64,000 nucleotides of DNA from a bacterium (lineage in GTDB: Bacteria > Myxococcota_A > Bradymonadia > UBA7976 > UBA1532), in contig JAUHYW010000056.1 of assembly GCA_030426085.1 (NCBI GenBank), forward strand, positions 1 through 64,000, read 5' to 3'. The position numbers and the translations under genes were made by a program. Positions 1-57,633 of the stretch are shown here, piece after piece. Under the pieces are notes generated by a model. The model was not told the DNA's origin and did no database searches. It was given only the letters and a program-made list of their open reading frames with translations. Positions within the stretch are counted from its first letter, which is position 1. Each line of letters opens with the position of its first letter.

Positions 1-499
1 GGGTGACGGGCGGACACGGCGACCGCCTGGGTGGGTGACGGGCGGACACGGCGACCGCCTGGGTAGGCATCGGGTGGACAAGGCGACCGCCTGGGTGGGT
101 GACGGGCCGGCAGGATGACCGCCTGGGTGGGCATCGGGCGGACAAGGCGACCGCCTGGGTGGGTGACGGGCGGACAAGGCGACCGCCGCCTGGGTGGGTG
201 ACGGGCGGACAAGGCGACCGCCTGGGTAGGCATCGGGTGGACAAGGCGACCGCCTGGGTGGGCATCGGGTGGACACGGCGACCGCCTGGGTGGGTGACGG
301 GCGGACACGGCGACCGCCTGGGTGGGTGACGGGTGGACAAGGCGACCGCTGGGTGGGTGACGGGTGGACAAGGCGACCGCGTGGGTGGGTGACGGGCCGG
401 CAGGATGACCGCCTGGGTGGGCATCGGGTGGACACGGCGACCGCCTGGGTGGGTGACGGGCGGACACGGCGACCGCCTGGGTGGGTGACGGCTCGACAA
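1..499. repeat. Tandem array A of a 32-bp repeat
   Basis: About fifteen head-to-tail units of 32 bp fill this stretch and continue past the left window edge. Two subtypes mix: one begins GGGTGACGGGCGGACA, the other GGGCATCGGGTGGACA; both end in CGACCGCCTGGGT. Units start at 1, 33, 65, 97 and 129; a 3-bp insertion lengthens the unit at 161. There are no unique spacers, so this is not CRISPR. Because 32 is not a multiple of three, reading frames through it are a by-product of GC-rich repetition. Function unknown; a satellite-like intergenic array is the plain description. Confidence 0.9.
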
Positions 500-519
500 G
501 ACGGCCACCTGCGGCCGTC
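500..519. repeat. Hairpin at the junction of two inverted arrays
   Basis: GACGGCC (500-506) pairs perfectly with GGCCGTC (513-519) around a 6-nt loop. It lies exactly where the 32-bp units change orientation, so pairing can continue, imperfectly, into both arrays and give one large inverted repeat. Confidence 0.75.
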
Positions 520-690
520 TCGCCGACCCGTGACCAACCCGGGCGGTCGTCTCGCCGACCCGTGACCAACCCGGGCGGCCGCCTCGCCGACCCGTGACCA
601 ACCCGGGCGGCCGTCTCGCCGACCCGTTGCCAACCCGGGCGGTCGCCTCGCCGACCCGTGACCAACCCGGGCGGCCGTCTCGCCGACCCG
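513..690. repeat. Tandem array B, 32-bp repeat in inverted orientation
   Basis: Five full units and one partial unit of 32 bp start at 513, 545, 577, 609, 641 and 673. The core is CTCGCCGACCCGTGACCAAC followed by CCGGGCGG. Read on the opposite strand the unit aligns with the array A unit over most of its length (shared CCCGT-AC--ACCC-GGCGG-CGCC positions), so arrays A and B are diverged relatives of one repeat in opposite orientations. From 691 to about 1012 I see no gene, only short GC-rich hairpins, for example GCGACGGTGT near 729 pairing with ACACCATCGC. Confidence 0.85.
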
Positions 691-1012
691 CCACGAACCC
701 ACACCGCCATCAACGGGAGTCGAGCGCGCAGCGCGAGACGCGAGCGACGGTGTCTCTGCACACACCATCGCTCACCCAGGTCGATGACCAGCGCACAAGA
801 TCTCACCCAGAACGCGCGAGCACGCGAGCGGAGCGAGCGGCCGAGCGCAGCGCAGGTGTCCGGCTACGCCGGACGGGTCGGAGCGACGACGCAGGTCGAG
901 CGCAGCGAGACCGAGGAGGAGCGGAGATCCCGCCCCCGCGCAGCGGGGGCACCGGAGTCGAGCACGGCTTAACGCAAAGCTGTTGGCGCGTTCCGAGCCA
1001 CCGAGAGCTGGC

Positions 1013-1420
1013 CCGCCTCGCCTACCCTCAGCGTTGCCCAGACCTGCGTCAAACCCACCCAAAGCCCGACCCACACCTCCGTCAAACCCACCCGAAGCCC
1101 GACCCACACCCCAGCTGCCCCGCCTCGCCTACCCTCAGCGTTGCCCACGCCTCCGTCAAACCCACCCGAGGCTACACCCACGCCACCCACCGAAGCCCGA
1201 CCCCCCGGGAACACCGGCCGCCGATGCGATACCCGGATCGAGGTGCCTGGCACCTCGCTCCGCAGCACCGTCAAACCACCCGAAGCCCGGCCCACACCTC
1301 CGGATCGAGGTGCCTGGCACCTCGCTCCGGCAGCACCTCGGGCACCTCGCTCCGCACCTCGGCACCTCGCTCCGCAGCAGCACCTCGCTCCGCAGCACCT
1401 CGCTCCGCACCTCGCTCCGG
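1013..1420. repeat. Intergenic repeat cluster with REP-like palindromes
   Basis: A block reading GCCTCGCCTACCCTCAGCG occurs twice (near 1017 and 1125), each copy followed by CGTCAAACCCACCC and GAAGCCCGACCCACAC modules. Two perfect palindromes of 9-bp arms, CGAGGTGCC-T-GGCACCTCG, lie at 1239-1257 and 1306-1324, followed by many copies of CACCTCGCTCCG up to 1420. The same GTGCCTGGCACCTCGAG core recurs at 57471-57525. Dispersed short palindromes of this kind resemble REP elements; no transposase is nearby. No gene is credible here. Confidence 0.7.
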
Positions 1421-1510
1421 TCAGAACACCGCGCCGACGGTCACGCCGAGGAAGCGCACGTTCCAGGGCAGGTCGGGTGACCTGCGCTTCACGGGGGGAC
1501 GCCGACGGCC
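1421..1510 (-). pseudogene. Possible relic: C-terminus of an outer-membrane-type protein
   Basis: The minus-strand frame ending at the TGA at 1421-1423 reads DLPWNVRFLGVTVGAVF, an alternating hydrophobic strand ending in Phe, as expected for the last strand of an outer-membrane beta-barrel. Upstream the frame dissolves into GC-rich low-complexity sequence with no start codon or barrel-like sequence, and the stop abuts the CACCTCGCTCCG repeats. I read it as the surviving tail of a gene replaced by repeat DNA. Only about 20 residues are convincing, so chance remains possible. Confidence 0.3.
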
Positions 1511-1546
1511 GATGACGGTGGGTCGGAGGCGCCACAGCGGTGGCGG

Positions 1547-1591
1547 GCGGGCACTGCGGGGGCGGGCGCTGCGGGGGCGGGCACTGCGGGG
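1547..1591. repeat. Three 15-bp tandem repeats
   Basis: The unit GCGGGCACTGCGGGG occurs three times in tandem with one substitution in the middle copy, just downstream of the 1608-2114 gene. Its G-runs on the plus strand could form G-quadruplex structure. No function is evident. Confidence 0.7.
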
Positions 1592-1607
1592 GCGGGCCCG
1601 GCGCTAC

Positions 1608-2114
1608 TTACTGCCCCAGCTTCACGTGCAGCCAGAGGCTCGGGGCCGGGCGGCCGTCGGCCATACCGCCCTTCGGCTGGCCCTCGCGGACCGACAGGGT
1701 GCCCGACAGGCCGTCGGACGCGAGGCGGTAGTCGGTGAAGGTGCCGCCGGGGCGCTGCACCTGCTGATCGCCGGCGATCCAGCCCTTGCCCTTCAGGGCG
1801 GCGAGCAGCGCGGTGGTCTGCTCGGGCTGCGCGACCGCGAGGAAGGTGTAGCTGGCGAGCCGGCTGTCCTTCAGGGCCTCGGCCGGGGTGAAGTTGGCGA
1901 CGAGCGTGCCGGGCAGGGCCGGGCCCACGCCGAGGGGGGCGGCCTGCGTCCGCATCCAGTAGACCAGCAGCGGTTCGTCCTCGCCGCGCACCCGGTCACT
2001 GGCCTCGGCGCTCTTGGTGGGCGGGCCGAGGGTCGTGGTCCAGGCGTCGAGGGTCGGCGTCGGGGCCAGCAGGGCCCCGGTCAGCGCGAAGAGCAGGGTC
2101 AGTGACGACAGCAT
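1608..2114 (-). CDS. Exported protein of unknown function, end of peroxidase operon
   Basis: 168 residues. The N-terminus is a signal peptide (hydrophobic segment about residues 2-17, then APTPT). The mature part has no cysteine and no motif I recognise; it looks like a small soluble periplasmic domain. The start codon overlaps the stop of the cytochrome gene (TGATG at 2112-2116), so translation is coupled and the gene is the last of the operon 4769 to 1608. Co-transcription with a cytochrome c peroxidase, a phosphoesterase and a small cytochrome suggests a role in the same periplasmic oxidative-stress or redox process, but nothing in the sequence shows an activity. Confidence 0.75.
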   Translation of the reverse strand: MLSSLTLLFALTGALLAPTPTLDAWTTTLGPPTKSAEASDRVRGEDEPLLVYWMRTQAAPLGVGPALPGTLVANFTPAEALKDSRLASYTFLAVAQPEQTTALLAALKGKGWIAGDQQVQRPGGTFTDYRLASDGLSGTLSVREGQPKGGMADGRPAPSLWLHVKLGQ

Positions 2115-2521
2115 CAGTGCTTGCCCGGCTCGAGCTTCACCCCGCGGCGCTCCCAGTTCAGGTAGGCCTCGATGGCGGTCATCTTGGGGTCGTCGAGCTT
2201 CAGCGGCTCACCCTCGAGCGGGTTCTGGATGCACCAGTTGATCATCTCCCGGATGGGCACGACCTTGCCGAGCTGCTTCTGGAACTTGGGGTAGGTCTCG
2301 GGGTGGGTGTTGGCCCCGTTGGGGTGGCACTGCGCGCAGGCGACGCCGTTGGTGCCCAGCTCGGGGCTGGTCCACAGCGCGCGCCCCTCCTGGGCGACCT
2401 TCTTGTACTGCTCCATCCAGCGCTCGACGTCCTTCTCGGTGAAGGTGTCGCCCGACGCCTGGACGGCGAACAGCGCGCCGAACGCCAGGACCAGCGCGAG
2501 GATCAGTGACTTGCGGATCAT
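2114..2521 (-). CDS. Small monoheme c-type cytochrome
   Basis: 135 residues with a cleavable signal peptide (about 1-22, ending VQASG) and a single heme-binding CAQCH motif near residues 62-66, so an exported c-type cytochrome. The segment MINWCIQNPLEGEPL downstream contains a third cysteine and resembles SoxA/SoxX-type and related small cytochromes; a clear axial ligand cannot be assigned by eye. It lies 33 bp after the phosphoesterase gene and is translationally coupled to the following gene. The likely job is electron transfer, plausibly to the diheme peroxidase in the same operon. Family beyond c-type cytochrome is not certain. Confidence 0.85.
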   Translation of the reverse strand: MIRKSLILALVLAFGALFAVQASGDTFTEKDVERWMEQYKKVAQEGRALWTSPELGTNGVACAQCHPNGANTHPETYPKFQKQLGKVVPIREMINWCIQNPLEGEPLKLDDPKMTAIEAYLNWERRGVKLEPGKH

Positions 2522-2554
2522 CGGTCTTCCTTTCGTGGAGCGGCGGGGGCCGAC

Positions 2555-3613
2555 TCAGTAGTGCTTCTGGGGCGGCGTCGTCCGCTTCGCGTAGGTCCGG
2601 TCCTCGGGCACGCCCTTGTCGTTGGGGCCCACGATGCGGTTCTCGTTGTTGTACAGGTTGTACTTCAGCGTGGGCCGCCCGGTGTGCACGTCGATGAGCT
2701 GCCAGCCGGTGGCGTCCCGCTCGTGGAACGGGTCGGCCCGGTTCATCGGCACGGTCAGCACCGGCAGGTGGCTCTCGGCCTGGGCGTAGGACTCGGGGTA
2801 GGGCCACGGCCAGGCGGTCGCCATGACGCTGTGGAAGTTGATGTTGCCGATCCGGTTGTACTGGATCTGGTGAACGTGGCCGTAGATCACGTTCACGTTG
2901 CTGAACCGGCCGAGCATCTTCTGGAGCTGCTCGGCGTCCTCGGTCCAGAAGTTCCAGTTCTTGAAGATCTTCTGCAGCGGGCTGTGGCTGAAGACCACCA
3001 CCGGGGTGTCCTTCGAGACCTTGGACAGGTCCTTCTCGAGCCACTTGCGCTGGGCCTCACCGACCATGAACGGCGAGCCGTTGGGGTTGTCGAGCCCCGC
3101 CATCTGGTTCATGCGCTCGACGTCGGAGGGCCACTTGTTCACCCACTCGTCGTAGGTGAGGATGCTGTTGAGCACCACGAAGTGCACGCCCTTGTGGTCC
3201 CACGAGTACCACTGGGGGCCGAACAGCTTCTCCCAGTATCTGCCCATGTCCAGGTAGAAGTCGTGCTCCCCCATCACGTACTTCACCGGCGCCCGCAGCT
3301 TGCTCATCATCTCGGCGCCGTGGTCGAGCTCGGACTTCTTGCCGAGCTGGGCCAGGTCGCCGCCGAAGACGACGAAGTCCGGCTGGGGGTCGAGCAGGTT
3401 GGTCTCGGCGACCGCCCGGATGAGCCCCCGATCCCAGTTGCGCACGAACTTGGCGCCCTTGATCTGCTGGATGTGGCTGTCGCTGATGTAGGCGATGTTG
3501 ATGTCGGGGTGGGCCCCGGCCCAGGCCAGCTTCACCTGGGTGAAGGGCAGCGTCGCCGCGACGAGGCCGGTGGTCTTGAGGAAGCCCCGGCGGTTGGGGT
3601 TGTTGACGATCAT
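2555..3613 (-). CDS. Tat-exported calcineurin-type metallophosphoesterase
   Basis: 352 residues. The N-terminus NRRGFLKTTG followed by a hydrophobic stretch is a twin-arginine signal, so the protein is folded and metal-loaded before export. The metallophosphoesterase motifs appear in order: DSHI (45-48), GGDLAQ, GEHDF (the GNHD motif with Asn replaced by Glu), FSHSPL and GHVH. The Asn-to-Glu change at the GNHD position is notable because that Asn normally ligates metal. Substrate unknown. It sits 16 bp after the diheme peroxidase gene and 33 bp before a cytochrome gene; this pairing of a Tat phosphoesterase with a MauG-type peroxidase suggests a shared periplasmic function. Confidence 0.9.
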   Translation of the reverse strand: MIVNNPNRRGFLKTTGLVAATLPFTQVKLAWAGAHPDINIAYISDSHIQQIKGAKFVRNWDRGLIRAVAETNLLDPQPDFVVFGGDLAQLGKKSELDHGAEMMSKLRAPVKYVMGEHDFYLDMGRYWEKLFGPQWYSWDHKGVHFVVLNSILTYDEWVNKWPSDVERMNQMAGLDNPNGSPFMVGEAQRKWLEKDLSKVSKDTPVVVFSHSPLQKIFKNWNFWTEDAEQLQKMLGRFSNVNVIYGHVHQIQYNRIGNINFHSVMATAWPWPYPESYAQAESHLPVLTVPMNRADPFHERDATGWQLIDVHTGRPTLKYNLYNNENRIVGPNDKGVPEDRTYAKRTTPPQKHY

Positions 3614-57331: not shown

Positions 57332-57470
57332 CGTGGGCTCCGAGGGTGCGTTCGCGGGACGGGCGAGGCCGCACGGTAGCAGATCGGGCGGGCCGGGCTC
57401 GACCCCCGATCAGGCGTCGGCGTCGAGGGTCCAGGCGGCCGGGGCGAGGAGGCCCGGCGCGGTCAGCGAG

Positions 57471-57525
57471 CCGGACCACGTGCCTGGCACCTCGAGCAGC
57501 CGGACCACGTGCCTGGCACCTCGAG
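57471..57525. repeat. Pair of REP-like palindromic repeats
   Basis: The unit CCGGACCACGTGCCTGGCAC + CTCGAG occurs at 57471-57496 and 57500-57525, 29 bp apart. GTGCC-T-GGCAC is the palindromic core, the same as in the two palindromes at 1239-1257 and 1306-1324. They sit in the 302-bp gap between divergent genes. Confidence 0.7.
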
Positions 57526-57633
57526 CCGGCCCGCGATCGCGACCGTCGACCCGCCGTATCGTAAGACTCGCGGATCGTCGGTGTACGCCGGTGGGTCTGC
57601 GCGGCGCGCAGGCCAGACCACGGGAGGAACCCC

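Follow-up and report, generated by a model that had tools for sequence, protein, structure and literature searches.

The nearest described kind of element to the one analysed here is BrickBuilt of Porphyromonas gingivalis, a minisatellite-containing MITE in which 23-nt units lie between a leader and a tail, with terminal inverted repeats. In the parts of that account drawn on here, no copy is reported to be split by an autonomous element (PMC4596501). Mosaics of REP/BIME sequences are also among the closest relatives in kind. The REP sequences associated with RAYT are defined, in the portion of the source used here, as palindromes of 20–40 bp with a GTAG or CGTC tag (PMC3733652). Our literature search found no paper on intergenic tandem repeats in Bradymonadales.

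We analysed a window of 64,000 nucleotides (the whole stretch of DNA, positions 1–64000) whose first base is also the first base of its contig (C139), in a genome of 10.1 Mb and 178 contigs (G000). The mosaic intergenic element at the left end of this window belongs to a family, so far without a name, that is restricted to one genus among the genomes searched. We consider it reasonably likely that this locus is a non-coding mosaic repeat, in which a 32-bp minisatellite adjoins a hairpin-rich intergenic element that is dispersed and genus-restricted, and that array A stems from a head-to-head joint with a second, inverted copy. The features of the locus are collected in Table 1.

Table 1. Repeat features at the left end of the window.
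Feature	Position	Strand	Description	Basis
Array A	1–491	−	About 15 units of 32 bp, in opposite orientation to the family's other arrays	Tandem Repeats Finder; unit alignment
Junction hairpin	499–520		Stem of 8 bp (499–506/513–520), loop ACCTGC	Sequence; inverted repeat centred there
Array B	511–690	+	5.6 units of 32 bp, oriented as the arrays at four other loci	Tandem Repeats Finder; comparison with L009, L010, L011, L012
Hairpin-string block ("block")	718–1037	+	Dispersed element adjoining the arrays	nhmmer profile; covariance model R1 at 815–952; stem covariation
3′-side array of block	1037–1110	+	33-bp unit, 2.2 units	Tandem Repeats Finder; similar arrays at other block copies

Tandem Repeats Finder reported 15.3 units with 85% matches for array A and 91% matches for array B. 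As a sequence-only reading of this DNA had proposed, the two arrays share a 32-bp unit, run in opposite orientations, and are related only after reverse complementation. Local alignment with B scored 132 for reverse-complemented A and 17 for A in direct orientation. Controls stayed well below the former score: the best of 300 dinucleotide shuffles of B reached 44, and the best of 1000 tiled shuffled units 84. The array units of B are indeed more uniform than those of A (mean pairwise identity of 90% over five units versus 84% over 15 units), and the separate histories that had been suggested for the two arrays are supported by the units of A, which are nearer to those of an array on contig C7 (mean identity 87%) than to those of B (70%). 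The contig start cuts array A, so the size given for it is a minimum.

An inverted-repeat search paired A with B over up to 184 nt at 70–75% complementarity, including a pair centred on the junction (351–506 with 513–668, 156 nt, 74%, spacing of 6 nt). A hairpin does stand at the turning point, but its stem (AGACGGCC/GGCCGTCT) is one base pair longer than the perfect 7-bp hairpin at 500–519 first described. The long inverted repeat is likewise real, and as single-stranded DNA positions 1–700 outdo all of 20 shuffles in folding (z −6.2). The cruciform that had been envisaged for it is another matter: only 8 bp are perfect, about a quarter of the positions in the long arms are mismatched, and with such arms extensive cruciform formation by A and B is unlikely. 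We replace the cruciform account with one of dispersed repeats. The earlier reading overlooked the dispersed hairpin block to which the arrays are appended, and the fact that the left edge of the window is the end of a contig.

Gene prediction left both the arrays and the block of the window free of genes, with the nearest one at 1608–2114; the block is intergenic. A protein-coding repeat was rejected, as no gene is called in the array and three frames of its minus strand are open simultaneously, so that openness is no sign of coding. A CRISPR array was rejected since the units run head to tail without spacers. A phage or plasmid origin was also discarded: positions 1–1000 of the window had no match in either collection, and one pattern from the block's 3′ end had none in viral contigs. 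No tRNA or tmRNA gene was found in the 64-kb window. A hairpin motif, GTGCCTGGCAC, is repeated in the 3′ region of the block (1233–1262 and 1300–1329) and again far away in the window (57469–57526).

Positions 1–700 match four other places in the same genome, namely on C7, on C20 at 77.5 kb and at 0.5 kb, and on C38. At each of them the array lies 5′ of a block and, read block-wise, its units have the orientation of B. Judged by unit orientation and similarity, A resembles the family's arrays but is reversed, and B has the usual direction but has diverged. At all four of these places a conserved left module stands before the array; it has another match at the start of C147, weaker matches elsewhere and none on the window's contig. 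The 3′ side of the block leads into 33-bp arrays at many copies. Among 42 pairs of 5′ and 3′ arrays, same-strand similarity scores were mostly higher than opposite-strand ones, and often within the range of column-permuted controls.

The block itself was found in two genomes, G000 and its genus sister G001. An iterated nhmmer profile gave 49 matches (15 and 34, respectively), a count that covers only the loci collected at that stage. A covariance model, R1, built from 16 of 26 aligned cores (five of the ten omitted contained inserts and five were dropped to shorten the set), detected 12 copies in G000 and 39 in G001 under strict filters; the remaining 55 of the 57 genomes of the class that were searched yielded no copy. 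In a BLAST-type search of 57 relatives, six genomes showed matches, those beyond the genus being only short, weak pieces. Among genome contigs, a conserved 26-base pattern of the block occurred only in JAUHXC records, in a search that may omit records close to the window's own genome. By a hand count on the R1 places, 14 of the 51 copies are no more than 1.5 kb away from the end of a contig, with about two expected by a rough estimate (the size of contig C27 was missing). Many block loops read GC-GNA-GC flanked by GA steps. The mini-hairpin formed by d(GCGNAGC) has a very high stability, and stems of this kind are stabilised by tandem G-A pairs. Some copies (among them L011, L029, L076 and L086) have an insert of about 42 bp around GGCCAAGCCCTCGACCTGACGGGGCGTAGGCC at their hairpins (alignment columns 166–207, 273–314 and 374–415). 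After one copy on C20 of G000, a CRISPR-like array (repeat about TCTCAATCCCCTCGTGAGCGGGGAGTGGCTGCAAG; L010:2820–3150) can be seen in the sequence.

Inverted pairs of blocks occur elsewhere. G001 contains five (two on C17 and one each on C20, C56 and C21) and one partial pair (C94), and in the C21 pair the 5′ ends face each other, as proposed for A and B. One of the C17 pairs lies inside a sulfatase-modifying-factor-like gene, which has about 760 bp where two paralogues carry about 830 bp; this is no clean insertion, and at this one place compared neither a target-site duplication nor a clean empty site was found. No short terminal inverted repeats were evident in the flanks of 23 block copies read by eye. 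The genes neighbouring 26 two-sided block sites were convergent at nine, divergent at four and tandem at 13 (hand tally), which gives no clear pointer to a terminator role.

The stems of the block suggest another reading, that of a transcribed structured RNA flanked by the arrays as repetitive sequence. In a structure alignment of 26 of the 49 nhmmer matches, the 44 named stem pairs showed standard pairing in 93.7% of cells (88.7% in shuffles) and a covariation score of 0.139, against 0.068 in shuffles, none of 500 reaching the observed value. Sliding the stem partners lowered covariation to at most 0.045, and the RNAalifold consensus held 44 pairs, of which only four showed a retained change on each side. 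G-T also exceeded A-C in the stems (75 versus 26 cells), but just two column pairs, with 26 and 18 cells, supplied most of this excess; an earlier, partly misplaced structure gave 48 G-T against 69 A-C. The folding energy of the window's copy speaks against an RNA, being unexceptional as RNA (z −1.10, 16 of 100 shuffles at least as good), as DNA (z −0.68, 22 of 100) and as minus-strand RNA (z −0.26, 40 of 100). Rfam returned two matches up to an E-value of 1 in positions 1–3000, both to microRNA families (E 0.02 and 0.075) and far under the gathering scores. We regard a structured RNA as unlikely. It is rather improbable that the arrays are functional, iteron-like sets of binding sites, with a dimeric protein on the near-palindrome AGGCGgtCGCCT of each 32-bp unit (about three helical turns) and with their orientation being relevant. 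Most units do contain the near-palindrome, and the periods of 32–33 and 42–44 bp would approximate whole helical turns; against this, the palindrome is broken in some units, array A includes units of 31 and 35 bp, and arrays at other loci differ in sequence. An assembly artefact at the A/B junction would suit a draft set of contigs in which array A stops at a contig edge, but the imperfect complementarity of the arms and the 72% match of the junction unit (483–514) to the reference unit are unlike a fold-back chimera and make this explanation most improbable.

Mobile elements stand at several block copies. The copy on C7 of G000 is split, after the hairpin GTCCGGCTACGCCGGAC, by a group II intron (L103:8656–10668; RF02001, 73.9 bits; RF00029, 39.4 bits, just below the cut-off of 40) that carries a reverse transcriptase with a maturase domain; the block model resumes past the intron, about 30 positions short. 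Three copies of G001 (C68, C69, C46) end in one common sequence, which in the one tested (L158) looks like a group II intron end, with 38.4 bits for RF00029; in a wider search no match reached the gathering score. Four other copies of G001 (C36, C22, C94, C49) share one 3′ tail into tyrosine-recombinase genes, assigned by Pfam PF00589 in the three tested and by about 95% DNA identity to C36 in the case of C22. Beside the C36 block such genes stand in tandem (L136:6741–11005), and a recombinase-in-trio was considered because of this arrangement. Another PF00589 gene lies near the C21 copy, and a recombinase query against viral contigs recovered 16 distant relatives with 24–36% identity. The common tail would fit blocks that are non-autonomous derivatives mobilised by the recombinases of these four elements, but this is very unlikely in our judgement: the tail is known at only four of 51 copies, nearly the same place is held by the intron-end-like sequence in the three copies named above, and the far end of the recombinase segment showed no block. 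We also give a low probability to the block being a hairpin-string DNA landing pad, on the folded single strand of which group II introns and tyrosine-recombinase elements would act; the arrays would then be left over from recurrent breakage and copying at that site.

We prefer the reading of a mosaic repeat joined head to head with an inverted copy. A 32-bp minisatellite located 5′ of the genus-restricted hairpin block may have grown and shrunk by slippage or unequal exchange, and the arrays may have spread together with the composite element at a time when it was mobile. Array A is probably part of a second, inverted composite copy, the block of which would lie to the left of the contig start. 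The reversal of A would mark the joint of the two copies, and the left modules that usually precede the arrays may have been lost there. The arrays and the block are probably once-mobile repetitive DNA with no gene of its own, and they appear to have no cellular function. Several points count against this reading. The contig ends before any reversed block to the left of A could appear. Neither a target-site duplication nor a clean empty site came to light at the one place compared, and the arrays themselves could still bind protein. In addition, 464 kb of G000 (the window together with 20 stretches of 20 kb chosen at a distance from contig starts) contained a single block, that of the window, and three of the 20 stretches held long intergenic arrays of 43–44-bp units (seven or more) without a block (L171:13324–13638, L173:17211–18004 and L177:6539–7114), which indicates that arrays can exist without the block. 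Three contigs (C47, C63, C138) run out in the direction of a reversed block and are thus candidates for the left neighbour of array A, which is consistent with the head-to-head joint and no proof of it.

Copies of the block tend to break assemblies and carry other mobile elements. The family could be used for watching how minisatellites and hairpin repeats grow, pair and gather insertions in bacteria.

The comparison with known systems places the locus among several families. By description only, the block resembles the bacterial stem-loop sequence families, as far as these are covered in the part of the source used (PMC2267715), both being intergenic repeats with a common predicted fold. The attC sites and terminators targeted by group IIC introns offer an analogy only, in the extract consulted, through hairpins at or beside group II intron insertions (PMC7923331). 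Like REP/BIME and REPIN elements, as presented in the portion of the source drawn on (PMC3733652), block copies are dispersed extragenic hairpins that often form inverted pairs. Unlike them, the block spans about 320 bp with many stems, and the RAYT Y1 transposase (PF01797) is absent from both G000 and G001 (it was detected in five of 14 control genomes), for which reason membership of the REP/RAYT group was rejected. Compared with BrickBuilt, as far as the source sections used here describe it (PMC4596501), the locus differs in its 32/33-bp units on either side of a hairpin block, in having no evident short terminal repeats, and in the one copy split by a group II intron. Both are intergenic, dispersed and host-restricted, and in both a minisatellite whose copy number varies is combined with flanking segments that are conserved, an arrangement that we found at five loci of G000, at the window's locus without the left module.
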